From contig CAJNDT010005334.1 of NCBI GenBank assembly GCA_905221615.1, forward strand, positions 1,618,001 to 1,682,000: a DNA stretch of 64,000 nucleotides, read 5' to 3'. The notes under the pieces are model-generated. The model saw nothing but the letters and a program-made list of their open reading frames with translations, was not told the origin of the DNA and ran no database searches. Below are positions 305 through 43,406 of this stretch, one piece after another. A program made the translations under genes and the position numbers. Position 1 is the stretch's first letter. Every line of letters begins with the position of its first letter. The DNA comes from Symbiodinium sp. CCMP2592 (taxonomy: Eukaryota; Sar; Dinophyceae; Suessiales; Symbiodiniaceae).

Positions 305-3082
305 CTCAGGCAGTACTTGATTCAACACCGACAGACACTAGATCACACAACAATTTTCCGACAAAAACAATTCAAGAACATCATACGCATTCTGGATCAA
401 GGCAGATCCATCTTACAATTCGTCGCACCATTGGCAGAACCAGTCTCCACACAATTCCATCAAATCATACTCTGGCTTCAAGGCCTGACTTTGTTACTTC
501 GTACACAGCATTTCTACCTCAAACATGAGGAAGGACATTTCTCCAACCTGCAGAGACTGTTTGCACATTCAAACATTTCTTTTCCATCGTACACACTCTC
601 TTTCTTTCGTCAGCCACAGGTGGTATACTGCAGAGTCACCACACAACAACCTTTTCGTGGCTACGTCTACATCGGCAGCACAAGTCACTCTCTCACACAA
701 CGAGAGGGCACACGCAATCGAAAATTCAAGCAACTTCAACAACACAAGATTGTACAAGCCGAACTTGCCTTACGATGGTGGCATAAACACAAATGCTACC
801 ACCAATACACACCAATTGTACTACAAGCCAACATACCCACCGAGCAATTAGAAGCCACGGAGAACACTCTCATACAACACCACCAATCCAAGCTCAACTT
901 TCCTTACATCACATCACACATGAAAGGAGCTTTTTCCGGCTTCACAAAAGCAGCCAACAACAAGCACAACGGCACAGCCACCTTATGGGCGAAGCAGCGC
1001 CGAGGCAAACTACACCACTCCATTCGGAGCTTCACCAATTCCACCTTATTCAACACCAGAAAACAGGCATGGACCACAGTATCACATCTTACTTCCAACA
1101 CTCGCACCAGATTCGACACAACAAAACAACTGCTTCGCTCAGACACACCAGCAGCCACAGTTTACGCTTTACACAAACTCTCAAACAACTTACCACGACG
1201 TGACCGCAGACACGCTCACAAAGCTCTCAACACCGTCTTCAAAAAGCGACGACTAAAACCACCTCCTGTCACAAAACCCATTTACCTACAGCCACTCTTG
1301 CACCCCACCTTCACCCAACAACTACGACAATTTTTGCGCTCTCGTTTAACAAGCAACAAACAACACATTCCACCATTCCACCTTCCCAGCACAAAACCTG
1401 TCTACAAAAAGCACCCACCCATGCAACAACTTCTACACAATTGGCGCGATGCCCACACCACATGGCAACCTGATTCACCACCACCCTGTACATGCTCACC
1501 ATTACACTCACAAGTACCCCAGGAGCACATTTTCCACAATCACATTGCTATCCAACTTGCAGAACTACAACCACAACATCAGTTTTTGGCATACTCCGGC
1601 AAAAGCAATTGCCTTCAAAAGCCCACACAGTTGGCCTCACAAGTATGCCGAGCCATACGCACATGGCATCGACACTATGGACTACCTTACAACCATCAAA
1701 CTGCAAAGCAGTTTGTATCTGAACAAATACCACAACACAACACACACTGCAGTAAAAACAACATACTACAGGTCAAGATGCTCAAGCAAGTCCAACACAA
1801 AATACCCACGGGTATCATCCATTGCGAAGATCACTTCCCGAACCGACTCACGTGGTACTGCCCAGCACTATACCACACTGCCATACACAACACTTCTTTA
1901 GACAAAGAGATCTTTCGGATCTCGCAGCGCCAACCTCTACAACACCACTTCGATGTCTACACAGACATCCGCAGTCTTCTACCAACTTACACATGGGCGT
2001 TTCCACAATGGGGCCGCATCCCACGTGCCTACATTCTACCGAAAAGAAAAAAGCAATTCGCGAAAGGACGTCCTATAGTGGCGTTCATCGACACCATGGG
2101 CCGAAAATTATGGGAAGCCTTAGCAGACGTACTGCAGCTGATGACACTTCAAGCATGCCCAAACTCCTTTCACCAAGGAGACGGGATAACACAGCTCAAA
2201 CAAACAGCACTCTTCTTGCAGCAACGCAGGAAATTACAAGATTCAACAGATTACATCCTGTACAATCAGGATTTGGCGGGCTTCTTTACATCGGTCGATC
2301 AGAGCCGGTTTCTTTCAGCATACAGCATCATGGTTCGATGGTACAGAGAGAAGAACCCACTACACTCTTCCAAATTCTTCATTGACCACTCACAGAAAGA
2401 CCCCACACATCGAGTCCACAGGGGCAAAAGCAGACAAAAGCAGCAAGAAGCCTCCTCCGGCAACAAACTTTGCATACAATTACAACACATACCACAACTC
2501 ATCATTGCAGTGCTCCGACTCAACTATTTCACTGTTGGTACATCACTCATTGAGCAATTTCGCGGTGCACCTATGGGCTCGCCCTGCAGCCCAGCCCTAT
2601 GCAACATCGTGGTTGCCGTCGAAGAACAGTGTTGGCACCACACATACAAACAACTTTTCAAGAACCACAAGCATTTTCCAGACCACAACAAGCAGGATCA
2701 AGCTTTCTTTTTTGCTACCAGATACGTCGACAACCGCGTCCTTCTTTTACCTGCACAGCTGACCCGACTGCCTCCTTTTGCACAGCTTACTGACGCATCT
2801 TTCTACAAACCACCGGTTCAGCTTGAAACTGAACCGGCCAACATTTTCCTGGGTTTCGCCATAAACCCTCAGCACAGCAGCCTTACGCATCAATGCACTT
2901 TGCACAAGGCGGACATTTTACACCCACAGTCAGCCACATCTGTTGCAACACTTCGCAGCAGTTTTCAGGCCCGCACCCGCATGGTACGCAGAGTGACAAC
3001 ACCATGCAGCGAGGCCACATCAGCCATTCGAGCCATGCGCGATCTCTACATCGCTGCCGGCTATACTGATCAACAGCTGTAA
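305..3082 (+). CDS. Penelope-like retroelement protein: N-terminal GIY-YIG nuclease plus reverse transcriptase
   Basis: About 925 codons are open between the TGA at 302-304 and TAA at 3080-3082. Around 638-930 is a GIY-YIG nuclease: VVYC, then VYIGST, a following Arg region, and ATENTLIQHH with the expected catalytic Glu, ending in KLNFPY. The reverse transcriptase follows at about 2030-2860: GRPIVAFIDTMGRKLWEAL, motif A NQDLAGFFTSVD, motif B GAPMGSPCSPALCN, motif C RYVDNR and a downstream IFLGF. N-terminal GIY-YIG ahead of the reverse transcriptase is the domain order of Naiad/Chlamys-type Penelope-like elements. Motif C has Asn in place of the second Asp. No ATG occurs before the nuclease; the first is near residue 200 of the frame, so translation probably enters from the upstream frame through the TGA or from a non-AUG codon. 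The strand is strikingly rich in A and C. The family call is firm; activity is unknown. Confidence 0.85.
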   Translation, partial: LRQYLIQHRQTLDHTTIFRQKQFKNIIRILDQGRSILQFVAPLAEPVSTQFHQIILWLQGLTLLLRTQHFYLKHEEGHFSNLQRLFAHSNISFPSYTLSFFRQPQVVYCRVTTQQPFRGYVYIGSTSHSLTQREGTRNRKFKQLQQHKIVQAELALRWWHKHKCYHQYTPIVLQANIPTEQLEATENTLIQHHQSKLNFPYITSHMKGAFSGFTKAANNKHNGTATLWAKQRRGKLHHSIRSFTNSTLFNTRKQAWTTVSHLTSNTRTRFDTTKQLLRSDTPAATVYALHKLSNNLPRRDRRHAHKALNTVFKKRRLKPPPVTKPIYLQPLLHPTFTQQLRQFLRSRLTSNKQHIPPFHLPSTKPVYKKHPPMQQLLHNWRDAHTTWQPDSPPPCTCSPLHSQVPQEHIFHNHIAIQLAELQPQHQFLAYSGKSNCLQKPTQLASQVCRAIRTWHRHYGLPYNHQTAKQFVSEQIPQHNTHCSKNNILQVKMLKQVQHKIPTGIIHCEDHFPNRLTWYCPALYHTAIHNTSLDKEIFRISQRQPLQHHFDVYTDIRSLLPTYTWAFPQWGRIPRAYILPKRKKQFAKGRPIVAFIDTMGRKLWEALADVLQLMTLQACPNSFHQGDGITQLKQTALFLQQRRKLQDSTDYILYNQDLAGFFTSVDQSRFLSAYSIMVRWYREKNPLHSSKFFIDHSQKDPTHRVHRGKSRQKQQEASSGNKLCIQLQHIPQLIIAVLRLNYFTVGTSLIEQFRGAPMGSPCSPALCNIVVAVEEQCWHHTYKQLFKNHKHFPDHNKQDQAFFFATRYVDNRVLLLPAQLTRLPPFAQLTDASFYKPPVQLETEPANIFLGFAINPQHSSLTHQCTLHKADILHPQSATSVATLRSSFQARTRMVRRVTTPCSEATSAIRAMRDLYIAAGYTDQQL

Positions 3083-32270: not shown

Positions 32271-34145
32271 GTGGCCAGCCAGGTTGCCGGCCACGGTGAG
32301 TGATGTGAAAAACGTCTTCACATCCTGTCAAGAAAACCGAAGCTTTTCAAACTGCGGCTCCCAGATCTTAAGAAGCCAAGGGCCTCCTGAAACTCAGGGT
32401 CTTCCTGCAATCAAAAGGAACAGACGGGTGTCATGAGAATTTGTGCTCCGAAGTGACAGAGCTGCGGCGCAGCCTTCAATTTTCGGACAAACCCCTTCAA
32501 GCCATCGTCGCTTTCACCTTGCACTCATGCAGCATCAGCGAAACACTCCGTTGAAGTCTTGGGCACGGACCCCTGCGGGCGGCTTCAGCGGCCTTTCCAG
32601 CGAGGCCGGAGCAAATGTCGACTGCACACACAGGCGCACAGCGACACTGGCACCAAGCTTTCCAATCCTGTGCTTCTGGATCCCGGGCCACCTGCATGCC
32701 AAGTTAATCACAGCATTCCAGATGAGCGCTGGAGAAGTTCATGCGAAAGCTTAGGTTCAAACCCGTTCGGCCCCTGCTTCTGGATCCCGAGCCGTCTGCC
32801 CGTAACGCTGGCTCTAGGATGCTCTAGGCGTGTCAGCTCCGCATCAGTGCAGTGGCCGATGGAGGCCTCTCCGTCTGCCTGTGCAGACATCCGGCCTGCA
32901 AAGCTTGAGCTCGGAAGAACGCAAAGTTTGCTGAAGCTGGCACTCGTCTGGCATCTGACACAACTAATCTTCATGCTGCACAGCCTAGGCTTGCCAAACA
33001 CCGAGATGCAGAAATCCCGATCTGGTGCAACAGACGGACCACCTTTTGATGACAGCTTGACGGCGGATGGTGGAGGATAGGACCGTCTATGTACTTTCAT
33101 TTGGCTTTGACTGTGGCAGCTGATTGGAACCCTTTAAGGTGCTAAACTCCATGACTGTCTTGCCGCAAACTGGGAGCTCCCTTCTCTGTTTGGTTCTTTG
33201 AGCAAACAAGACTGCCGACTGCGTCAGCCTTGATTCCTCCGCATTCGACATGTCGCTGCTTTTGCTCGTTTGGGGGTAGGCCATCGCTTCTCTTGGGCCA
33301 GAAGCACTCTCATGGATGCTGCCATTTTCTCGACATGTCAGAACGGCATCAAATTTGGCATGCAACGCTTATTGGAACTTCCATACGACCAATCTTGCTG
33401 TGTTAACTGAGCAACATTGAATGCATACGTGTACTTGCTTTACTTGACTCCAGGACGGCACGCTTCCAGAATCTGTGATTTTCGCTAAGGCCTACCTGGC
33501 GCAATTCTGCCTGACGAGTGGCTTCGCATTATGATGCTTTCTACACTGCGGAGACTCGGTTTCTCGTCTAGCTCGCCTTGTTTGCCGTTGGTTGGTTGCC
33601 GACATTAGTAACGATTTTTCGTTCATGCCTGGTTGGCTCTGAGGATGTAGATTATGACAACGGGGCTCGGACTTTAAACCGTATGTCAGTGAGCCCTTCT
33701 TGCTTTCGCGGCTGCATCCCCAGGAGTCGAGCCAAGCATTGCATGTTGACCTCCAGAAGGAATCTAAACACTTGGACTGAGTTTGGACTACGTGCTCAGC
33801 ACCTTGCCGCACATCAGACAGCCAAAATAACAACTTGAAGAACGTGCATGGTCGGTTTGTGTTGGTGTGCATGTTCATCGCAGCTGCGAACGACGGCCAG
33901 AGAGCAGTTGCTGTCGGCGGAAGATGAGAACACCGTTGATTCAAGAAGTCGTTTCCCGACAATCAACATGAACATGTGACACACTCAGAATTTCTGCGCT
34001 TACGACCACTCCATCCGGGCCGTACACAGCATCACACCGCGTTAAGCGCAGCGAATGATGAACCTCGTTTGTGTGGAGCAAAGCGTCCGTCATGCTTATG
34101 ATGTCGAGCCAGCATTCTTGCATACCCTGAAATTCGAAAGTAAGG
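32271..34145. other. Stretch without a supported gene
   Basis: Upstream of the signal peptidase on the minus strand. Segments such as AVKLSSKGGPSVAPDRDFCI near 33,040 and QRRELPVCGKTVMEFSTLKG near 33,140 look protein-like and may be 5' exons of that gene or of another; I could not place splice sites. Confidence 0.3.
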
Positions 34146-34288
34146 GTGCACTAGCAACCTACGTCGATCCCACCGTCCACCCCTGCACCTCCTAGCACAA
34201 GGAGTGGGCAGACTGAGACGCATTGTTTTATCTGTGGCGGCAGATCCCTGTAGCCCGGAGATGCCTAGCTTCGAGCTAGCAAAACTCC
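34146..34288 (-). repeat. B2 copy of the split direct repeat (143 bp)
   Basis: Identical, base for base, to 34,477-34,619. Marks the 3' end of the element. A 17-base G-rich spacer (34,289-34,305) separates it from the A2 repeat. Confidence 0.9.
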
Positions 34289-34305
34289 AGGGAGGGTTGG
34301 GTGGG

Positions 34306-34476
34306 TACTCTGAAAATCTTCTACCCCCCAAAGGGGTTCTAGCCGTAACGGCGACGGATAGAACACATTTAGCGAAAACACCTTCGATGTTTTAGCTGTC
34401 GACACCTTCGATGTCGAAGGAGGAACTTCGGGTTGCTAGCACACACAGTTGTCCCTCGTCCCTCGTTACAAGAAGC
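34306..34476 (-). repeat. A2 copy of the split direct repeat (171 bp)
   Basis: Identical to 43,236-43,406. Contains two CACCTTCGATGT units, the palindrome CCTTCGATGTCGAAGG and the short inverted repeat GCCGTAACGGC. Confidence 0.9.
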
Positions 34477-34619
34477 GTGCACTAGCAACCTACGTCGATC
34501 CCACCGTCCACCCCTGCACCTCCTAGCACAAGGAGTGGGCAGACTGAGACGCATTGTTTTATCTGTGGCGGCAGATCCCTGTAGCCCGGAGATGCCTAGC
34601 TTCGAGCTAGCAAAACTCC
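34477..34619 (-). repeat. B1 copy of the split direct repeat (143 bp)
   Basis: Identical to 34,146-34,288; abuts A2 without a gap and directly follows the RNase H gene. Confidence 0.9.
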
Positions 34620-34636
34620 TAGCAACGCCACTCGGG

Positions 34637-35272
34637 CTACCAGGGTTCTAGCTTCTTGGGCTTCTTTCTGAAACGCATCGGTTTCACCGACCTAGCTGCT
34701 TTCCGCTTCTTAACTTCGCCGAAAAAGCTTGCAGAGTGTTCTAGCAGCTTGCCCAAGACTCGCCACCGAAGTTCGCTGCCAACTAGCGGGACCCGGAACT
34801 CTGGAGAAAAGTGATCGAACTTTTCGTTCGTCAGGTCGTCTGCTAGCTGGTTCAGGTCACGGCGGACCCACTGTAGCTGGAGTTCGCAGTTTCTAGCTTC
34901 CAGCTCTTCTGCTAGCTCCATCAGGACTAGCCCCGAAGGAAACTTTGTGGTCATCAGCTTCTTTAGCAGAGCTTCGTTGGACTGGTTGTCCGTATAGCCT
35001 CTCAGAGCTACACGGGACAAGGTCCTAGCCCTGCCTTCTGGGATCCAAAGCCGAACTGCAACAAGGGTTGCCAGTAGCTCTAGAGCCGCGATGACCTTGT
35101 TGGGGTCACCTTTAGCGAAAGCCCAAGGTGCCCAATCAGCCTCCACTTCCAGCGAAAACCAAGGGCCCTGGCAGCCGGGAACTAGCTCCAAGAAACCCCC
35201 GATCCAGGCCCGGCCCGCCTCGGCCTTAGCGTCGGTGAAAAAGCTGAGCGGCGCCTCCGTAACTTCTAACGG
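34637..35272 (-). CDS. RNase H domain of the YR retrotransposon
   Basis: The frame is open from 35,272 with no ATG near its start and overlaps the end of the reverse transcriptase frame by 47 bases, so it needs a +1 (or -2) shift to be made. It begins APLSFFTDAKAEAGRAWIGG, with the first catalytic Asp in the T-D-A form usual for RNase H of DIRS-like elements, has the Glu region VIAALELLATL, then YTDNQSNEALL with the next Asp, and ends with a His/Asp-containing segment (VRRDLNQLADDLTNE). A T5 run at 35,238-35,242 (plus-strand A5) lies in the overlap. It removes the RNA of the RNA-DNA hybrid during reverse transcription. Confidence 0.8.
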   Translation of the reverse strand, partial: PLEVTEAPLSFFTDAKAEAGRAWIGGFLELVPGCQGPWFSLEVEADWAPWAFAKGDPNKVIAALELLATLVAVRLWIPEGRARTLSRVALRGYTDNQSNEALLKKLMTTKFPSGLVLMELAEELEARNCELQLQWVRRDLNQLADDLTNEKFDHFSPEFRVPLVGSELRWRVLGKLLEHSASFFGEVKKRKAARSVKPMRFRKKPKKLEPW

Positions 35273-36170
35273 CTATCCAGCTACAGAGCACTCTTATCAT
35301 GGTGGGCAACTTTAGCGGACCTTGGCAACCTTGCACCGCCGAGGACCAGGCATATAGCGGTCCGAGGAAGGGCTTCTCCCAATCTAGGGACATCGCCGCA
35401 AATCCCAGCCTGCCTAGGCCCTGCGCCATCTCCTTGGCCGAGACGTAGCCAGCTGTAACGGTGTTCCGTAGCCAGGAGACCAGCCAGCCTGCTCTCTTCG
35501 CCGAAAGCCCCAGGCGGTGGCTAGCGTACTCGGTCTCCATGCCTAGCCACTCCACCCGGAAGCCCCCTCTCGACTTGGCCCACTTGAAGGGAAAGCCCAG
35601 ACTAGCGAAGTAAAGGTAGCTGAGCGGGATGCCCTGTCTCCCCTTTGGGCCGCAGCCTAGCGACTCCAGGTCGTCCGCATATAGCAGCATGTCTATCGGG
35701 TACTCTGGCCCCACTAGATGGTGGACCAGTCTCAGACCGCAGGCGGCGATCCTTGACCACCAATAGCTCGCGCAGGAGAGGCCGAAAGTGCCTACCAGAT
35801 TGACGTAGACAGTCTGTGTAGCGGGGTCCCCGGGGACCTCTTCCTCTAGGCTTATCTGGCATGCCAGATAGCCGTGCTCCTTGCTCTGGTGCTTGTAGCG
35901 GCGGTGGGCTTTAGCTATGTCGCCAACAACCGAAAAGGCCACCTTCTTCTCCGCTAGCATCTCCCGGAGCAACTGCTTTTTCTCCCGGGCTCCTGGAGCG
36001 CGTAGCTTATCACGACATTTGATGCGGTGATTGACTCTCACTCCATGAGTAGCATCATGGATGATGCGCTTCTTGTTAGCTGCCTCGTCCTCAACAATGA
36101 CGGCTAGCGCAGCTATAGCTCTGTGGTCGCCGTACTTCTCGACAAACTCACCTAGAGTCATCTTTAGCAT
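35226..36170 (-). CDS. Reverse transcriptase of the YR retrotransposon
   Basis: 314 codons from the ATG at 36,170. The finger region has KKRIIHDATHGVRVN, motif A is SVVGDIAKAHRRYKH (catalytic Asp), a middle block is GTFGLSCASYWWSR, and motif C is LLYADDLESLG with an intact YADD, followed by FPFKWAKSRGGFRVEWLG. This is the reverse transcriptase of DIRS/Ngaro-type elements. The same frame continues upstream through a single TAG (36,198-36,200) into the preceding ORF, and the codons between (reading EFDE-like sequence after the stop) look coding. It probably forms a polyprotein with its neighbours. Confidence 0.88.
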   Translation of the reverse strand: MLKMTLGEFVEKYGDHRAIAALAVIVEDEAANKKRIIHDATHGVRVNHRIKCRDKLRAPGAREKKQLLREMLAEKKVAFSVVGDIAKAHRRYKHQSKEHGYLACQISLEEEVPGDPATQTVYVNLVGTFGLSCASYWWSRIAACGLRLVHHLVGPEYPIDMLLYADDLESLGCGPKGRQGIPLSYLYFASLGFPFKWAKSRGGFRVEWLGMETEYASHRLGLSAKRAGWLVSWLRNTVTAGYVSAKEMAQGLGRLGFAAMSLDWEKPFLGPLYAWSSAVQGCQGPLKLPTMIRVLCSWIAVRSYGGAAQLFHRR

Positions 36171-36197
36171 GAGGCCTTCGGCTACGTCCTCGTCGAA

Positions 36198-36902
36198 CTA
36201 GGTGTAGTTAGGGACCCACGCTAGCGAAGCCTCCCAGGGAGCATTCTCCAGCGGCCACTTTAGCTGCTCCTCGTAGACGTGAGGCGTGCGAGGTAGCGGG
36301 TCGAGGATCCCCACAGGAAGTCCTGTCTCCGCTGCCAGGAGGAACTCTCTATCCGGGTCCCCTGCAGCTTCTAGCAGCGCCCGCATGAGCCGTAGATAGA
36401 GAGGCTGGCCCTCCGCCACTTCTAGCAGCTTCGGGTCTGTAAGGTCTTGGGCCTCTAGCCAAGCTTTCCAGACTTCCCTGAGCTCCGACTGTAGCTGAGG
36501 GTCCGACGCCAAAGAGCAAGCCGTAGCACCTCCCGAAGCCATGCGGAAGGCCTCCTTCTCTAGCTCCTTCTCGGAGCCCAGCTTCCCAAGGACCACCTCC
36601 TTCATTCTACTCCGTAGCCAGTCCCAGTTGTTGCCGCTAGCGAGGTTACGACGCTCCGGTGGCCAACGGCCAGGGGAACAAAGTCCCCCGCCGTCGTGGA
36701 AGTCCTTGTAGCCACCCACCTGCCAGCAGCGACGGGGTGGTCCGTGACCTCCTTGTAGCCTCGGGCCCTCCGGCTGGCAAACAGGAAAAGCCTCCGGAGT
36801 AGAGTTCGGGTGCTCCGTAGCGGGGGCCCCCAAAGTCTCGCCGCAAGCAGTCGAAGCTGAGGCCACCGTGTGGAGCACCAAGGCTGCTAGCCAGCTGCAC
36901 AT
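36198..36902 (-). CDS. Linker/N-terminal part of the reverse transcriptase polyprotein, 234 aa
   Basis: The ATG at 36,902 overlaps the end of the methyltransferase-like frame by 16 bases in another frame. The first 80 residues are Gly/Pro/Arg-rich and low in structure; the rest is helical and acidic (LGSEKELEKEAFRMAS, QSELREVWKAWLEAQ), ending in a conserved-looking PHVYEEQLKWPLE before TAG. The following reverse transcriptase is in the same frame. Known dinoflagellate DIRS-like polyproteins place such a helical segment before the reverse transcriptase (my recollection, not checked). No enzymatic motif seen. Confidence 0.55.
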   Translation of the reverse strand: MCSWLAALVLHTVASASTACGETLGAPATEHPNSTPEAFPVCQPEGPRLQGGHGPPRRCWQVGGYKDFHDGGGLCSPGRWPPERRNLASGNNWDWLRSRMKEVVLGKLGSEKELEKEAFRMASGGATACSLASDPQLQSELREVWKAWLEAQDLTDPKLLEVAEGQPLYLRLMRALLEAAGDPDREFLLAAETGLPVGILDPLPRTPHVYEEQLKWPLENAPWEASLAWVPNYT

Positions 36903-37639
36903 TTGCGGTGGCCAAGCCGCTGTACCTGTGGTAGCGAAAGCAGTCGAGGTCCTGCAGGCAAGGGACCAGTGTAGTAGCCTTCGGAATCAAAGGCAGGCAG
37001 TGCTTCGTAGCAGCAGTCAGGTAGATGCAGAGGCGTCTTTAGCAACAGTCGAGTAGGTTTGCTGTAGCTTGTACCAAAGGAGCGTTGCTGAAAAGCTGCC
37101 GTGCGGAAGCCTGCTGAAAGTAGCTCCGGAAACTGGGGCCATTGCCACATAGATGCGGGTCTCTGGCCTTTGTATGGCCCGGAGGCTAGCGCACCTAAGT
37201 CCTCTGGCTGCTCTAGCACGAAGGCTGAGGCAGCCCCCTGGGCTACTAGCTGAGCGACTTCAAAAGAAAAATCAGCAAAAATGTTGCCTAATATAGCTTG
37301 GTCCCTCTGGGCTGCCGTTAGCTGCGCGTTGCCTCTGGGACAGTCGTAGCTCCTGACCGGCAGCGGCCCACGGAAGTTCGCCCAGGCTGCTCTGGAGAAA
37401 GTAGCGCAGGGTGGCGAAAGCAAAATTGCACTGAACTCTCTAGCTGCGATCCGCTGCAAGTAGGCCGTGCGAACCTTTTCTAGCGAAAGGTCATATCGCT
37501 TATCGCGCAGGATGTCTACGCACTCGACAGAGACGTCCAGACCCATAGCAGTAGCAGTGTGGTGAAGACACGTAGCCATGTCCCATGGGCGCACCTCACC
37601 CGCGAACAGGTAGAGGACCTTGTAGCTGTGCGGCGGGCT
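36887..37639 (-). CDS. Methyltransferase-like domain of the YR retrotransposon
   Basis: Open in the Gag frame directly after Gag's TGA (37,642-37,640), with no ATG before the first motif. It begins YKVLYLFAGEVRPWD, resembling the SAM-binding Gly motif of DNA methyltransferases, continues with CVDILRDKRYDL (acidic loop) and ILLSPPCATFSRA, the S-P-P-C-x-x-F-S catalytic loop seen in cytosine-type methyltransferase relatives, then AFVLEQPEDLG. DIRS-like elements often carry a methyltransferase domain, but normally near the RNase H; here it follows Gag. Whether it methylates DNA is unknown. Confidence 0.6.
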   Translation of the reverse strand, partial: SPPHSYKVLYLFAGEVRPWDMATCLHHTATAMGLDVSVECVDILRDKRYDLSLEKVRTAYLQRIAAREFSAILLSPPCATFSRAAWANFRGPLPVRSYDCPRGNAQLTAAQRDQAILGNIFADFSFEVAQLVAQGAASAFVLEQPEDLGALASGPYKGQRPASMWQWPQFPELLSAGFRTAAFQQRSFGTSYSKPTRLLLKTPLHLPDCCYEALPAFDSEGYYTGPLPAGPRLLSLPQVQRLGHRKCAAG

Positions 37640-38878
37640 TCAGTTGGAGGGCTTGCCTCCGTCGCCTTTGGCACCTCCCGAGTTGGGGGTAGCCACAGGA
37701 CGGCCGCCGGCTTTGCACTGGTAGGCCGGATGCTTAGCGAAGCATAGCTGGCAAACATGCTTGAAGCGGCAAGCCTTCTTGTGCGGGCAGCCTTGCTTGC
37801 TATTGTAGCGAAAGCAAATTGCCTCGCCTTCCGGCGTTGTGGTAGCCCCATTCGCCACGCCTTTGCCCTTGCCTTCGCCCTTAGCGCCCTTGGTGCCCTT
37901 GCCTTTGCGTGGCTGTCGGATCCAAGGGCTATCGGGCGGGGGGGCGGGGCGTTTAGCGTGAAGGGCCAGCGGCGTTGTGAAGTGCCGCTCCTTGAGTGCC
38001 GCATCCTTGTAGCTTTGCTTCAAGGCCTCTGCGAAGGAGAGGGACTGCTGGGCCATGAGCTTGTAGCTGTGTTTGCGTATCGCGTGCTCGTAGCTGAGGA
38101 CCAGATGCCACGGCGGCACCAGAGCACCGGAATCTTCACTAGATCGTAGCCCATAGCAAAAATCTCCCAGCAAGTATTCTTTATATTTTTCGAAGACAGC
38201 CTGCGTCACGTCCTTTAGCTCCGAGCGGGACGGGTGCTTTAGGCGGATCATGATCAGGGCATTGGCTAGCACTGTGAGGCGTAGCCGTAGCTGCTCTGGA
38301 CCCGAGGGCATCGTTGTGCGTGACCCGCCTTTCCTTAGCGAGAGGGTGCCCTTAGCATCCCAGGCGGGTAGCAGGACCTCGGGGTCGACTTCGTCTCGGC
38401 TAAGCACTTCTGTTAGCGGCTCGGCTCGGAATTCCCCGGTCTCTAGCTCGTGCAACTTCTTCTCGATATACTCTTTAGCAGGAACGTGGCGGTCTTCAAC
38501 TTCCCCAAACTGGGTAGCAAAGGCCTGTCGCATGGCGATGTAGTCCGTCTGTGGGATGGGTTTAGCCCAGTCCCGGACCTCACTTGTAGCTTCAGCCTCG
38601 GCCTGTGTCTTGACCCTAGCAGAAGCTGTCTGCCATGCCACAATGAAGCTAGCGATCTGGCCTCTGGAGGCAAGCGTGCCATCAGGAGCCATGGCGAAGG
38701 CGTCCTGAAGCACCTTGCGGAGATCTTCTTCGCTAGCAACAAAAGCAGCAAATTTCGCCATTGTATCGATGCCATTGTCGAAAAGTGTAGCCTGGTTAGC
38801 ATCGCTGACCCTGTTCTGGGTCAACATGTGTCGGAGGTCAGATGCCCCTTTAGCCAGCTTGGCGGCGTCCGCTGCCAT
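37640..38878 (-). CDS. Gag-like protein with CCCH zinc finger, 412 aa
   Basis: The ATG at 38,878 gives 412 codons. The first 300 residues are helical and soluble with no named domain; a Gly/Lys-rich basic linker follows (GKGTKGAKGEGKGKG), then zinc-binding clusters CFRYNSKQGCPHKKACRFKH (CCCH) and CQLCFAKHPAYQC. This layout (assembly domain plus nucleic-acid-binding knuckles) is that of a retroelement Gag. It ends in TGA, after which the same frame stays open for 250 codons into the methyltransferase-like domain, so a Gag-fusion by stop readthrough is plausible. Confidence 0.7.
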   Translation of the reverse strand: MAADAAKLAKGASDLRHMLTQNRVSDANQATLFDNGIDTMAKFAAFVASEEDLRKVLQDAFAMAPDGTLASRGQIASFIVAWQTASARVKTQAEAEATSEVRDWAKPIPQTDYIAMRQAFATQFGEVEDRHVPAKEYIEKKLHELETGEFRAEPLTEVLSRDEVDPEVLLPAWDAKGTLSLRKGGSRTTMPSGPEQLRLRLTVLANALIMIRLKHPSRSELKDVTQAVFEKYKEYLLGDFCYGLRSSEDSGALVPPWHLVLSYEHAIRKHSYKLMAQQSLSFAEALKQSYKDAALKERHFTTPLALHAKRPAPPPDSPWIRQPRKGKGTKGAKGEGKGKGVANGATTTPEGEAICFRYNSKQGCPHKKACRFKHVCQLCFAKHPAYQCKAGGRPVATPNSGGAKGDGGKPSN

Positions 38879-39207
38879 GGCTAGCCCGGAGGTCTTACAC
38901 TAGGGAGGCCAGGAGAGCACAACGAGGCTGTAGCGGGTGCAGAGTGGAGGTAGCACAGCACAAGCGGCCTGCTCCTGGCAACTCTCGGAGACCTAGCGAG
39001 ACGGCCCCGTTCCCAGACCCCCCCCCCCCCAGGCCCAGCAGGGAAGGTGGGGAGGAAGTGGTCGGGTCCCTCCTTTTGTGGGCGCCTCAGTTTTCCCCCC
39101 TAAAAGGCTTTGCCCCTTAGCGGAAAACCTCTCTCTCGCGCCTCCCTTCTTTCTGGCAAACGGAGTCCTAGCGCAACGGCCTTTATAGCGGGCCCTCAAA
39201 AGCAGAG
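38879..39207 (-). other. Non-coding spacer of the YR element
   Basis: Between the zinc-ribbon gene and Gag. It has a run of twelve C at about 39,008 and six or more TAGC (GCTA in the sense strand) copies although it is not coding. Confidence 0.6.
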
Positions 39208-39801
39208 TTAGCGCATGCACTGGGTGCACCAGTGAGCGTGGTGGTCGTCTAGCGGCCACCACATGCGCCTGTTGCACATGTTAGCGTGGCAATTGGGGCA
39301 CCGTATGATACATCTAAAAATATAGTTTCTATCGTCCCAACGGCCAAAGCCGAAGGTATCGTCCTCATCATTAGCAACATGTAGCGGGAAGGGCACGTCC
39401 CGCTGCATCCAGGTCGCCAGCTCTAGCGCCCGGCCGGTCGGAGGCATCGCACAGATCTGCTCCAGGTCGTAGCCCGTCAGGTCTTGTAGCCACGCCGGGT
39501 TGGTAGCATTGGCTGGTGCCATCTTGTCCTTGCCTTTAGCGGTGCCCTTCCCCTTGCCTTTAGCTGCAGCCGGCGGCCCCTCCTCCAAGGTCCAGGTGCC
39601 TAGCGGCCAAAGAGGCCGCGGCACTGACGACCAGGAGAGCTCTAGCAGGTTGCCCTCTTCGCCCTGTGGCCGGCTGTTAGCATGGGCTCCCACCGGCGGT
39701 GGCATGACGAGCTCGATCGGCACGGTTGTGCCACGTAGCTCGGCCACCGAGCGGTTGTCATGTAGCGAAGTGAGAGGGCCATCGCGCAAGGTCGGCCTCA
39801 T
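39208..39801 (-). CDS. Zinc-ribbon protein of the YR retrotransposon
   Basis: I use the ATG at 39,801; the frame is open further upstream to about 39,950. The middle is Gly/Lys-rich (AAAKGKGKGTAKGKDK) and the C-terminus has paired cysteines and histidines: CIIRCPNCHANMCNRR, then DDHHAHWCTQCMR at the very end, a likely zinc ribbon. The product is probably a nucleic-acid-binding accessory protein. Upstream (39.8-40.1 kb) all three frames are open for a while, so a longer product by frame change cannot be excluded. No family recognised. Confidence 0.5.
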   Translation of the reverse strand: MRPTLRDGPLTSLHDNRSVAELRGTTVPIELVMPPPVGAHANSRPQGEEGNLLELSWSSVPRPLWPLGTWTLEEGPPAAAKGKGKGTAKGKDKMAPANATNPAWLQDLTGYDLEQICAMPPTGRALELATWMQRDVPFPLHVANDEDDTFGFGRWDDRNYIFRCIIRCPNCHANMCNRRMWWPLDDHHAHWCTQCMR

Positions 39802-40062
39802 GGGCCTAGCCGCTAGCAGCACCACGTCCCAAGTGCGGTTGGGATCTGGTAGCGCCGTTGGTGGCTGCTGCTGGCCGCCGCCCGACCTGCTTAGCGACCG
39901 CCTCGGTGTATGCGAGCGCGACCCAACGTGCGAGCTGGCAGAGGGTTAGCTTCCTGTAGCGGTGGAAAGCTCCCTCGCCCCATCTTGTTGGGCGTAGCCG
40001 AGCGGCGCCGGGCATCGTCCATTGTAGCAGCAGCGGCTGGAGCGGCAGTAGCGGGGCCCGGG

Positions 40063-40686
40063 TCATTGCTGCCCCGCGGTGCCTCGGCAGCTGTAAGCGG
40101 CACTCTGTGTGGCCCGGGCCAACTGTGCTCGCTCTAGCTCTTGCTGCTGCCTCTGCTGCAACTCCTCTAGCGTCTGGCGGAGCTGCGCCTCCTGTGCTTG
40201 CTGCTGCTTTAGCTGTTCCGCTTGGAACTCAGCTAGCAGCTCTTCCTGTCTCTTCTCTAGCTCTGCCAGGTGCTGCGCCTTCATGGTAGCGAGGTCGATG
40301 ACTTCATCAGGTGGTAGCGGCTCCTGCTGCACCACTCCGTGGACCTTGTCCACTAGCAGGGCCCTCTCGACCTCGTTTAGCTCCTTCTCCTCCTCCACGG
40401 TGAGGTCATCTAGCGAGGTCAAGCTCGCTAGCCAGTCAAGGCGGTTGGTGTAGCGGGAGCCCTCCGGGAAGCGTTGCTTGGAGGCCCCTTCCGCTGTAGC
40501 CGCACGGAGGCCTAGCGGAACCTGGGCCTTCCTGACCGTGTCCACTAGCGCCTGCAGCTCGTCGGGATGCAGCCGAGCTCGGAGCACGCCTTCTAGCGTG
40601 TCCTTGTCGGACTGCACCCAGTGCTTGACCGCTGTAGCGCAGTCAATCGCCGAGTGCTCTGTAGCGGGCACTTGGGAGCTAGCCAT
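40063..40686 (-). CDS. Coiled-coil protein of the YR retrotransposon, 207 aa
   Basis: The ATG at 40,686. The N-terminal half is mixed and soluble; residues of about 125-195 form a long Glu/Gln/Leu-rich coiled coil (HLAELEKRQEELLAEFQAEQ and onward). It may be a structural or Gag-related oligomerisation protein. No family recognised. Confidence 0.55.
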   Translation of the reverse strand: MASSQVPATEHSAIDCATAVKHWVQSDKDTLEGVLRARLHPDELQALVDTVRKAQVPLGLRAATAEGASKQRFPEGSRYTNRLDWLASLTSLDDLTVEEEKELNEVERALLVDKVHGVVQQEPLPPDEVIDLATMKAQHLAELEKRQEELLAEFQAEQLKQQQAQEAQLRQTLEELQQRQQQELERAQLARATQSAAYSCRGTAGQQ

Positions 40687-41113
40687 GCCGATGGCTGCTA
40701 GCTGTCGCTTTCGCTAGGGTTTTCCTAGCACAGATATCTCGAGAAAGAGAGCTGTAGCGAAAACGTTTCCCATAGCGAACCCTTGCGCACTCACTGCCTG
40801 ACCTAGCCCGCCTCGCAACCTTCGAAATGGGGTTAGGGACAAAGGGGAAAACCCGAGGGAAGCCTAGCGCACACAGCGACCGCAAGGACATGTAGCAAGA
40901 CCGCAGCAAGAACATGTAGCAGAACGTGATTCTCTCCCCTCCTCTTCTGTCTTCCCCCCCCCCGAGAGAGACCCCCCCCAAGGAGACCCCCCCAGAGGAG
41001 AAAAAGCAAAACGAAAGCAAGATTCATTTTAGCGTGCCAAAGGTACTTGCGTAGCCGTGGCAGTTGCCAGGCCCCCATTAGCCAGAGCATTCGCACTCAG
41101 GCCCGGGATGCTA
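40687..41113 (-). other. Non-coding spacer of the YR element
   Basis: Between the recombinase and the coiled-coil gene. C-rich tracts at 40,957-40,990; TAGC motifs remain frequent here. No open frame with support. Confidence 0.6.
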
Positions 41114-42463
41114 TCAAGCAGCCGGCTCTACCTCTAGCTGCGGTTCATCCCCCGAGTGAGCCGTGGAGGTCTCCGACCCATTTTCTAGCTCCTCGGGAAC
41201 GTCGTCTTGCTGAGGCCAGCAGAGGCGGCACACATGAGTATACTCGGTGCTTGCTGGAAGGGCGTCAAAATTTTTAGCATTCCGAAAGTAGCGGCGCTGG
41301 CCCATCCAGCATCCTTTCCCGCAAGCCTTGTGTAGCCTGAAGACCGCCCCCGGCTGCCCCACGACCACATAGGCCGTCTTCCTGCCCTGCAGTCTAGCAG
41401 GTTTGGGTGCCCGCTCCTCGCTGGAGCTGCTGCTGTCCCCACTCGACGTGGTGGAGCTGCTTGAAGAGCTAGCACTGGACTCTAAAATCGGCGGGGGCAC
41501 CACTCCAGCCACCGGTCCATCTAGCTCCACATCCGTTTTCCAGGTGATTTCTAGCACCCGAGCCTGCCACTCAGCCTGCGCTGGCGGCAGCCCTTTCTTA
41601 TCAACAAGCCAGTCCCGCAGCGAAGTGCCTATCTCGCGTTCGTCTAGCACCTCGCTGTGGCCGGCTCCTTTTGCAGCTTTGGCAAAAATTGCCTGCAGCC
41701 GAGCGACCCTTCCTGGGAAGGTTCTAGCATACGTGTCGGAGCTCTCTGGCTTCCAACGACCTAGCAAATCTTTGTCGGCAGGTGGCGTCTCTTGTAGCGA
41801 GAGGCCTGTTGGCAAGACCGACCGCTCACTATGCTCAGTCCAGAACCCTTGGACCACAGAAGGCAGCCCAAGAAGATGTAGCAGCGCTGCTGTAGCCACC
41901 ACCGCGTCCGGGTACTCCGCAATCTTGTTCTCTAGCAAGCCTTGGCCACCCAGACGCGGGAGAAGGTAGTCCCGCTTATAGGGTGCTCTTTCCTTTAGCA
42001 ACTGAAAGCCAACTTGTAGCCACGTCTTGCGTTTGAAGAACGCGTGCTCGGACACGCACACTGGTAGCTCTTTGACCTTCTTGTTGGGGCCGGAAGTTTT
42101 CGTCTTCCGTAGCGTGGTGGTCAGCCTCCCCTCCACCAGCCGTAGCTCATGTGGTAGAATGGCCTGAAGGTCGGACCACCTGAGTGTAGCCCATGTCTTC
42201 ACCAGTTTGGCCCAGGCCCATATGCGGTGCCCCACAGCTTGTGTAGCGTCAAGGACCAGGTCTTCTAGCTTCACTAGGATGAAGACAGGGTAGCGTGGCG
42301 CCCTCTTCGTGAGAGGTGTCCCCTGTGATAGCTCTTCCGTAATGCTGTCTCTAGCTGCCAGTGCGAGACGTCCCGCGGTAGCTCTTTCTTCCGCTGGGAA
42401 CTCCCGACCTTTTCCAGCCAAAGTATAGCACTGTAGATGGAAGCTGGTATAGAGCGCCCACAT
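41114..42463 (-). CDS. Tyrosine recombinase, catalytic domain (449 aa frame)
   Basis: The ATG at 42,463. Catalytic residues are visible: Arg in TLRWSDLQ, a Lys in LRKTKTSG, the His-x-x-Arg box in TEHSERSVLP, and LLGRWKPESSDTYAR with the Trp and the nucleophile Tyr. This is the integrase of DIRS/Ngaro-type elements, joining the circular DNA intermediate to the genome. The C-terminal 120 residues are Ser-rich and then Cys-rich (HKACGKGCWMGQRRYF, THVCRLCW), perhaps a zinc-binding tail. The frame overlaps by 190 bases with the upstream frame that holds the core-binding domain, and a -1 shift near the A4 run at 42,410-42,413 would join them. Confidence 0.85.
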   Translation of the reverse strand: MWALYTSFHLQCYTLAGKGREFPAEERATAGRLALAARDSITEELSQGTPLTKRAPRYPVFILVKLEDLVLDATQAVGHRIWAWAKLVKTWATLRWSDLQAILPHELRLVEGRLTTTLRKTKTSGPNKKVKELPVCVSEHAFFKRKTWLQVGFQLLKERAPYKRDYLLPRLGGQGLLENKIAEYPDAVVATAALLHLLGLPSVVQGFWTEHSERSVLPTGLSLQETPPADKDLLGRWKPESSDTYARTFPGRVARLQAIFAKAAKGAGHSEVLDEREIGTSLRDWLVDKKGLPPAQAEWQARVLEITWKTDVELDGPVAGVVPPPILESSASSSSSSTTSSGDSSSSSEERAPKPARLQGRKTAYVVVGQPGAVFRLHKACGKGCWMGQRRYFRNAKNFDALPASTEYTHVCRLCWPQQDDVPEELENGSETSTAHSGDEPQLEVEPAA

Positions 42464-43194
42464 GGTTCGTCTCGCCGGACCACCAGATAATCTACCAAGT
42501 CAGCGGGGCGGCCCGGCGGCCTTTTAAGTTTAGCCTCCCAGAGCCATAGCCGCCACCTTTTGTAGATAGTGAGGTAGCGCTTCAAGGTGGTGGCTCGCGT
42601 GCTGCCTGCTAGCATGCTAGCGGCACGTGGCGGGTCCAGGCTGCTCTCAAGTTGCTCTAGCACAGGTGCCCGACACTCCCGGAGTTCTTCGTGTAGCCGA
42701 AGGGTCCACACTTCCAGAAGTTTCTCTCCCCTGGCTTGTAGCACACTTCCCTCTAGGATCAGCTTCCTGCGTCGCTCCCCGGGTGGGGGTCTAGCAGGAT
42801 CTTCTTGCTCCTCTGGGTCCGCACCACGTAGCCTCTTCTCCGGCGGTTCCAAGGCCGCCCAGTAGAGAGGCTCCCGGTGGAAGCCAGCCATCCTTATCTC
42901 GACTGGGCCTTTCCCCCTAGCTTCCTCGATCAAGAAGCGGAGCAATTGTTCTAGCTCCGCACTAAAGGGGATCCTCAGCTCGAGGGCCAGCTGTCTAGCT
43001 AGGCCCGGAACGTCCTCGTCCCGTACAGTGGCAAGCTCCGGATTGCGGAACCCTTGTTCTAGCAGGTAGTCGCGGCACTTCCGTAGCAGAGGGTCACGGA
43101 TCTCCACTTCGGGTTCCGGTGACAGTGGCTGCGCATCTAGCATTGCCTCCACCTCAGATAGAGCCGGACTATCCGGAACTTCTTCCACTTCCAT
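42274..43194 (-). CDS. Tyrosine recombinase, N-terminal region and core-binding domain (306 aa frame)
   Basis: The ATG at 43,194, just inside the A1 repeat. An acidic N-terminus (MEVEEVPDSPALSEVEAML) precedes a helical region. Residues of about 195-260 resemble the core-binding domain of tyrosine recombinases (TTLKRYLTIYKRWRLWLWEA, IYSAILWLEKVG). The frame runs on 140 bases past the point where the catalytic-domain frame takes over, with unconserved sequence. It sits at the 5' end of the element, whereas recombinases of Ngaro and DIRS are usually last. Confidence 0.7.
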   Translation of the reverse strand: MEVEEVPDSPALSEVEAMLDAQPLSPEPEVEIRDPLLRKCRDYLLEQGFRNPELATVRDEDVPGLARQLALELRIPFSAELEQLLRFLIEEARGKGPVEIRMAGFHREPLYWAALEPPEKRLRGADPEEQEDPARPPPGERRRKLILEGSVLQARGEKLLEVWTLRLHEELRECRAPVLEQLESSLDPPRAASMLAGSTRATTLKRYLTIYKRWRLWLWEAKLKRPPGRPADLVDYLVVRRDEPCGRSIPASIYSAILWLEKVGSSQRKKELPRDVSHWQLETALRKSYHRGHLSRRGRHATLSSS

Positions 43195-43235
43195 AGCGGC
43201 GAGCGGGGGCCTAGCCCCCGTTTCCTTTCCTATAA

Positions 43236-43406
43236 TACTCTGAAAATCTTCTACCCCCCAAAGGGGTTCTAGCCGTAACGGCGACGGATAGAACACATTT
43301 AGCGAAAACACCTTCGATGTTTTAGCTGTCGACACCTTCGATGTCGAAGGAGGAACTTCGGGTTGCTAGCACACACAGTTGTCCCTCGTCCCTCGTTACA
43401 AGAAGC
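43236..43406 (-). repeat. A1 copy of the split direct repeat (171 bp)
   Basis: The 5' end of the element; identical to 34,306-34,476. The host sequence resumes at 43,407. Confidence 0.9.

Follow-up and report, generated by a model that had tools for sequence, protein, structure and literature searches.

A dense, evenly spaced GCTA array on the sense strand of a retroelement from Symbiodinium

Introduction

SymbioDIRS-Dnmt3 of Symbiodinium has been described as a tyrosine-recombinase retrotransposon with split direct repeats, of the PAT/Ngaro/DIRS order (PMC5890265). The present analysis concerns a related-looking element in a 64,000-nucleotide stretch of Symbiodinium sp. CCMP2592 DNA (contig CAJNDT010005334.1, positions 1,618,001 to 1,682,000; hereafter the window), whose sense strand is filled with the four-base word GCTA. 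Like SymbioDIRS-Dnmt3 and the PAT/Ngaro/DIRS group, as characterized in the relevant sections of PMC5890265, this element has repeats in the order A-coding-B-A-B, separate open reading frames (ORFs) for a putative recombinase and pol, a dinoflagellate host and a putative, divergent reverse transcriptase. Unlike SymbioDIRS-Dnmt3, it has no detected Dnmt3 domain, places a putative recombinase first and carries a Gag with a CCCH-type zinc finger as well as the planted word; the sections of PMC5890265 that give the account of SymbioDIRS-Dnmt3 mention no such word.

It has long been asked how the Gag protein of a retroelement or virus picks its own RNA out of all the RNA in a cell, and the usual view of packaging signals is that of local structures. 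According to the pertinent part of PMC6475782, dispersed packaging signals consist of a short motif repeated along one RNA as many weak copies, with the coat protein proposed as reader, and the GCTA array resembles them in these points; unlike them, it is a linear word about every 30-40 nucleotides (nt) over about 9 kilobases (kb) and has lineage dialects. By analogy, the array may work like dispersed packaging signals, of which it is a candidate member. The part of PMC4974528 on Ty1 and Ty3 states that Gag, which has a zinc finger in Ty3, is needed for RNA packaging and that packaging sequences of the two elements are not precisely defined, and it describes no genome-wide word; the present element shares with Ty3 a Gag with a zinc finger. 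The finger type, CX8CX5CX3H, is that of CCCH RNA-binding proteins such as Unkempt and tristetraprolin; unlike in those proteins, a single CCCH finger is followed by a zinc knuckle, and both lie in a retroelement Gag. Neisseria and Haemophilus have DNA uptake sequences, short self-identity words spread over the genome; in contrast to the GCTA word, these are longer, occur about once per kb and belong to double-stranded DNA in bacteria. Among the open-licence PMC papers listed by literature searches, judged by titles and the beginnings of abstracts, there was no described counterpart of such a word.

Results and discussion

The GCTA array and its boundaries

34142..43406, minus strand (the sense strand): whole element, 9265 bp, with 231 sense GCTA over 34146-43406

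An initial annotation of this DNA had proposed that GCTA is planted on the sense strand across the whole element, from 34146 to 43406. Although the actual start is 34142, the central claim held: within 34146-43406 we found 231 sense GCTA (plus-strand TAGC) against 59.0 expected from dinucleotides, a 3.9-fold excess, and only 39 copies of the opposite-strand word. As had been predicted, GCTA was the top tetramer of the element when counts were set against dinucleotide expectation, with the runner-up at 2.5-fold. In 1000 first-order Markov sequences, GCTA had a mean of 59.2, a standard deviation of 7.6 and a maximum of 83; a trinucleotide model, the trimers of which are themselves inflated by the word, gave an expectation of 142. 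The stretch 34,620-36,225, for which at least 39 TAGC had been reported, contained 40.

The word was confined to the element, as the annotation had also stated. In 250-nt bins, the 4-8 sites of the interior gave way to 0-1 beyond either end, a drop completed within a single bin. The remaining 54.7 kb of the window held 108 GCTA and 93 TAGC against 140 and 136 expected, slightly below expectation, and the host DNA nearby contained about 2 GCTA per kb, nowhere near the density of the element. When the window was scanned in 4-kb blocks, TAGC came out on top only in the three element blocks (z-scores of 9.6, 14.5 and 13.1), and the strongest block elsewhere was an AT microsatellite (ATAT, z-score of 9.7).

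The spacing of the sites was more even than random. We found a mean distance of 40.1 nt with a coefficient of variation (CV) of 0.51, compared with 0.98 for random placement; there were 6 gaps shorter than 10 nt versus 47 at random, and the largest gap was 124 nt. This CV was the lowest among 31 common tetramers, of which the next reached 0.85. The proposed 15-70 nt range applied to the stretch in which it had been read (34620-35227) but not to the whole element, where 16 of 230 gaps were shorter than 15 nt and 18 of 230 were longer than 70 nt. An element of a second lineage, L036, showed a GCTA spacing CV of 0.47, the lowest of 46 common tetramers (next 0.77). We regard it as nearly certain that the array is a selected one; it is strand-specific and lineage-specific.

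Synonymous choice follows the word

Codon usage or translation, with CTA and GCT as preferred codons, would be one way to obtain the array, and many sites are indeed Leu CTA or Ala GCT codons. However, the preference was strong only in the word-making context. Across three lineages, Leu was encoded by CTA in 61-69% of cases after a G-ending codon and in 0-10% after C: 100/165 and 7/71 in the window copy (hereafter focal; 8/39 after T), 92/133 and 0/67 in L036, and 36/56 and 1/44 in L038, an element of a third lineage. Similarly, Ala was GCT before A in 57-82% of cases (65/99 focal, 97/119 L036, 36/63 L038) and otherwise in 9-28% (50/180, 13/140 and 11/68). Two DIRS-like control elements showed a mild shift at most, with Leu CTA after G in 5/32 and 1/20, Ala GCT before A in 5/13 and 5/13, and Ala GCT otherwise in 12/60 and 8/36.

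The non-coding parts speak against codon usage as well. Their GCTA density (25.7 per kb) equals that of coding sequence (about 25 per kb), as previously noted, and two non-coding spacers hold 7 and 11 sites. All three codon phases are used in the reverse transcriptase, in agreement with the annotation, although we counted 7, 6 and 10 over 23 sites rather than 6, 5 and 10 over 21; in most other ORFs, phase 1 is seldom used. Amino acid choice is not the cause, and a codon-usage origin of the array, already contradicted by this evidence, has a negligible probability.

Among the places at which GCTA could be written without changing the protein, 166 of 342 were used in the focal element, 218 of 357 in L036 and 80 of 185 in L038, compared with 20 of 186 in the controls. 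Gaps shorter than 15 nt among the used places numbered 11 in the focal element versus 38.0 by random choice (minimum of 2000 draws, 25) and 21 in L036 versus 58.8 (minimum of 2000 draws, 44). The four-base word itself is under choice, and its spacing is more even than codon availability yields.

Relatives in the same genome and turnover of sites

To place the array among its relatives, we used 42 loci (L005-L046), all from the same dinoflagellate genome and retrieved through the similarity of their proteins, without reference to GCTA. They represent the window copy (L005) and 39 other elements, L012/L035 and L014/L036 being the same elements. Each of the 39 was GCTA-rich, and on the sense strand only, which extends the proposed property to other copies. 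The reverse transcriptase proteins, for which 126 of 1825 candidates were scored, fell into the focal family (97-100% identity, one copy at 85%), a family at 76-78% and a family at 70-72%; the recombinase proteins of the two other families were about 56-59% and 49-53% identical. Each protein query scored 86-126 of 1825-2696 candidates, and near families filled these places, which limits the reach to distant lineages.

In a 3-kb codon alignment, at 64% identity, the focal element shared 25 of 69 GCTA sites with L036 (36%; all tetramers, 22%); with L038 the figure was 18 of 69 (26%; all tetramers, 19%). The unshared focal sites faced many different tetramers, one or several changes away. Because few sites are shared and the others stand opposite many words, the density of GCTA is kept while the places of its sites change.

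These alignments bear on a mutational signature as the source of the word, whether from a deaminase, context errors of the reverse transcriptase or repeat-induced mutation. Such processes can be strand- and context-specific, but the many tetramers opposite unshared sites do not form a one-precursor, one-change pattern, and local mutation makes neither even spacing nor the mutual avoidance of GCTA and GATA described below. In addition, word positions differed less, not more, between copies than other positions did, with values of 0.032 versus 0.048 (7 loci) and 0.0135 versus 0.0223 (23 loci) in comparisons of pairs that are non-independent. Only one of 17 control words was lower in each family, namely CTAG (0.027), which overlaps GCTA, and ACGT (0.0128). 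A mutational origin is contradicted by this evidence and is very improbable.

Two DIRS-like lineages of the same genome, which have a PF00589 recombinase, contained no planted word. GCTAT was mildly raised in L052 and L054 of a DIRS-like lineage (11 and 12 versus about 2, small numbers). A fetch by terminal-repeat similarity returned a decayed relative with 59 GCTA (L060) and two loci, L059 and L061, of mainly other sequence with just a small GCTA-dense patch each. The repeats of L059 (C3135:9000-15000) are about 75% identical to the focal ends and 23 kb apart, and a different, AGCGCC-rich sequence adjoins one repeat, perhaps as a nested insertion. An IMG/VR scan with two reverse transcriptase peptide patterns gave 132 pattern matches and no confirmed relatives. 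Genome-wide counts of three GCTA spaced 14-44 nt apart, in which simple repeats are included, were 104352 + 101738, and those of the reversed control were 38950 + 39439.

Dialects of the word

Each of the three lineages has a dialect of its own: GCTA[CG]A in the focal family, CGCTA in the second and GG[C/A]TA in the third. In the focal family, GCTA is followed by C or G and then A (A at +5 in 45%), with no clear preference for the preceding base; the decayed L060 leans to this dialect, avoiding T at +4 and +5. In the second lineage (L035, L036, L040 and L045), C precedes GCTA in 46-59% of cases, and in the shorter reverse transcriptase windows L012-L034, it does so in just 35-41%. In the third lineage (L037-L039, L041-L044, L046 and L064), G precedes GCTA in 68-77%; GATA is also enriched, 2.4-3.6-fold in 9 loci, and is likewise preceded by G in the eight loci tabulated. 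The base before GCTA differed between the focal element, L036 and L038 with p = 1.3e-52, and the +5 base differed between lineages with p = 4e-10.

In the third lineage, GCTA and GATA behave as one site class, because GATA avoids GCTA, occupies its long gaps and makes the joint spacing more even. GATA lay within 12 nt of GCTA 13 times in L037 and 16 times in L038, compared with 50.4 and 54.5 by rotation; 46 and 44 of 115 GATA fell in the 20 longest GCTA gaps, which make up about a quarter of the length; and the joint spacing CV was 0.63 and 0.59 versus 0.78 and 0.75 for GCTA alone.

The dialects also indicate where a reader of the word would be encoded. A host factor serving RNA export, anti-silencing or protection from decay or the spliceosome might read the word, which the element would then have multiplied so as to attract that factor. 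Recruitment of RNA-binding proteins by dense arrays of short words is common, and the part of PMC11009413 on the CCCH protein Unkempt reports that it recognises UAG upstream of a U/A-rich trimer. Nevertheless, one genome holds three dialects in three lineages and two other retroelement lineages that manage without the word, and the host DNA of the window has no GCTA excess; we consider a host reader improbable. Different words coexist among the lineages of one nucleus, which makes it unlikely that they share a host reader and likely that the element itself encodes one. Base-pairing to the dinoflagellate spliced leader, the complement of which holds GGCTAC, was rejected, as pairing is lost in the dialects CGCTA and GGATA. 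This leader, 21 bases long, occurs 217 + 212 times in the 1.1-Gb genome and its reversed control 0 times, which marks the host as a dinoflagellate.

Architecture of the element

All features below lie on the minus strand.

43236..43406, minus: terminal repeat A1, 171 nt, identical to A2
42274..43335, minus: putative tyrosine recombinase, N-terminal part; its frame differs from that of the C-terminal part in the window copy
41114..42463, minus: putative tyrosine recombinase, C-terminal part, with a Cys/His segment at its C-terminus; boxes HSER and LLGRW..Y recognised by eye
40063..40686, minus: 207-amino-acid ORF, Glu/Gln-rich, probably coiled coil (by eye)
39208..39825, minus: 205-amino-acid ORF with a conserved Cys/His-rich C-terminus
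37640..38878, minus: 412-amino-acid Gag-like ORF, assigned by position and fingers; no Pfam match
37715..37816, minus: Gag zinc fingers, CX8CX5CX3H then CX2CX3HX4C, residues 355-388
36887..37594, minus: methyltransferase-like ORF, so called only for its SPPC motif; Pfam gave no match and PDB no credible one
36198..36902, minus: 234-amino-acid ORF, linker part of pol in the broken window copy
35226..36170, minus: putative reverse transcriptase; YADD box by eye
34637..35191, minus: putative RNase H part; weak ribonuclease HI match (E-value of 0.0018, far below cut-off)
34473..34619, minus: terminal repeat B1, 147 nt, 146/147 identical to B2
34306..34476, minus: terminal repeat A2, 171 nt
34142..34288, minus: terminal repeat B2, 147 nt

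The initial annotation had called this a tyrosine recombinase retrotransposon. The split direct repeats, in the order A1-coding-B1A2B2 (A, 171/171 and B, 146/147 identical), fit that name; the recombinase is unconfirmed by homology or fold. It had no Pfam match, hhalign against a PF00589-positive recombinase aligned only 10 columns, at LLGRW, which was not significant, and its AlphaFold model had a predicted local distance difference test score (pLDDT) of 34.8, too poor for use. The reverse transcriptase likewise had no Pfam match and no credible PDB match. A Pfam search of nine element ORFs at an E-value of 0.1 returned no family, hence no Dnmt3-type domain (PF00145). Matching ends were present on at least 14 contigs of the genome, including that of the window, with C118 and C539 partial. 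The window copy is slightly broken and better-preserved copies exist, because open frames are longer elsewhere: the window copy has its pol and its recombinase divided among several frames (34637-36902 and 41114-43335), while open frames of the reverse transcriptase region in other copies reach 1040 codons, and several copies have the recombinase as one frame of about 750 codons.

The Gag finger as candidate reader

The C-terminal end of Gag contains CX7-8CX5CX3H and then CX2CX3HX4C. All 13 Gag loci scanned had the first spacing, those of L035 and L040 on frames that are short or broken, and in the 13 of 13 loci read each dialect went with one finger type. The focal finger is CFRYNSKQGCPHKKACRFKH; that of the second lineage (L035, L036, L040 and L045) is CFRYNAKGCKNG[SN]KCHFEH; and that of the third (L037-L039, L041-L044 and L046) is CFR[FY]N[LA]K[GS]GCKKGDKCHFVH. 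The third-lineage finger passes Pfam zf-CCCH with 24.8 bits (cut-off, 20.5), and a finger profile gave three PDB matches, all weak (E-values of 0.0045-0.016) and all of CCCH type, including tristetraprolin. A pattern scan of the fetched upstream ORFs of the two DIRS-like lineages without the planted word found no such finger.

We propose, with moderate confidence, that the array is a set of evenly spaced sites read by the element's own protein, most probably Gag, which would select and package its own RNA. The sense RNA would carry a few hundred weak binding sites, read by the CCCH finger and the adjoining zinc knuckle; many Gag molecules would bind each RNA, roughly one per 30-40 nt, and in this way the element would pick out, condense and package its own RNA in competition with host RNA and with that of sister lineages, which have other dialects. 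This proposal suits a Gag coating its own RNA because the spacing is footprint-like (30-40 nt, with short gaps avoided and long ones filled), the word is on the sense strand and the finger is of an RNA-binding type. The initial annotation had named RNA packaging, RNA protection and sites in complementary DNA (cDNA) as possible roles without choosing among them; for the target, we infer RNA in preference to cDNA.

Several results weigh against this proposal. The weakest step is the match of finger to dialect, read from sequence: it is confounded with phylogeny, so that independent points number only about three. The focal finger matched no Pfam family, the second-lineage finger stayed below the Pfam cut-offs, and the structure model of Gag was poor (pLDDT, 49.6). 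The focal dialect was weak against its own baseline (p of 0.008-0.02 per position), and the sharing of GCTA between the focal element and L036 ranked only 18th of 101 tetramers. L038 was less even than the others: its GCTA-alone spacing CV of 0.75 was third lowest of 44 tetramers, and its used places had 8 gaps shorter than 15 nt versus 16.4 by random choice, with a lowest of 6 in 2000 draws, below the observed number. The accessibility of GCUA predicted by RNAplfold was neutral, at 0.129 versus 0.113 for same-letter words in one element, 0.159 versus 0.127 in another and 0.101 versus 0.123 in L038. Moreover, the Cys/His segments of the recombinase C-terminus and of the 39208-39825 ORF have also diverged by lineage.

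This last point favours another protein of the element (the recombinase, the methyltransferase-like domain or the 39208-39825 Cys/His ORF) as reader of the sites on single-stranded cDNA or RNA, where it could coat cDNA or guide reverse transcription or circle formation. These candidates are all encoded in the element, and a reader acting on one cDNA strand would be compatible with the strand bias as well. A recombinase, however, is expected to need end sites, not one every 40 nt. The methyltransferase-like domain is a poor candidate, and an enzyme mark made by it is unlikely, because its motif changes among loci of the same GG[C/A]TA dialect: SPPC in L039 but SPPV in L037, L038, L041-L044 and L046 (7/8 third-lineage loci). 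Overall, we judge a reader other than Gag within the element to be unlikely, though less so than a host factor. As a separate observation, the change from SPPC to SPPV in this ORF downstream of Gag may mean loss of activity.

If Gag is the reader, the dialects might constitute a lineage-specific self-recognition code, an evenly spaced word of four to six bases that runs through coding and non-coding parts, in which each Gag reads its own dialect through its own zinc fingers and sister elements that share a nucleus keep their RNAs apart; we put this forward tentatively. Such sorting would protect elements from being parasitised by one another or by host RNA, and word and finger would co-evolve, with hundreds of sites rewritten each time. 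Here the signal appears to be the RNA in its entirety, the word is simple enough for work in vitro, and the three natural dialects provide built-in controls. The array would be a case in which selection acts to a single end on a selfish element, changing hundreds of its synonymous and non-coding positions, and regular word arrays would offer a sequence-only test for similar codes elsewhere.

Other observations in the window and genome

A 921-amino-acid ORF on the plus strand of the window (317-3082) has a weak RVT_1 match (E-value of 0.00017, below cut-off) and, by eye, a GIY-YIG-like start; it is probably a Penelope-like element and carries no planted word. Contig C5051 (L047-L050 and L058) encodes bacterial-type recombinases and a trigger-factor-like ORF, and by eye, it looks like bacterial DNA in the assembly.

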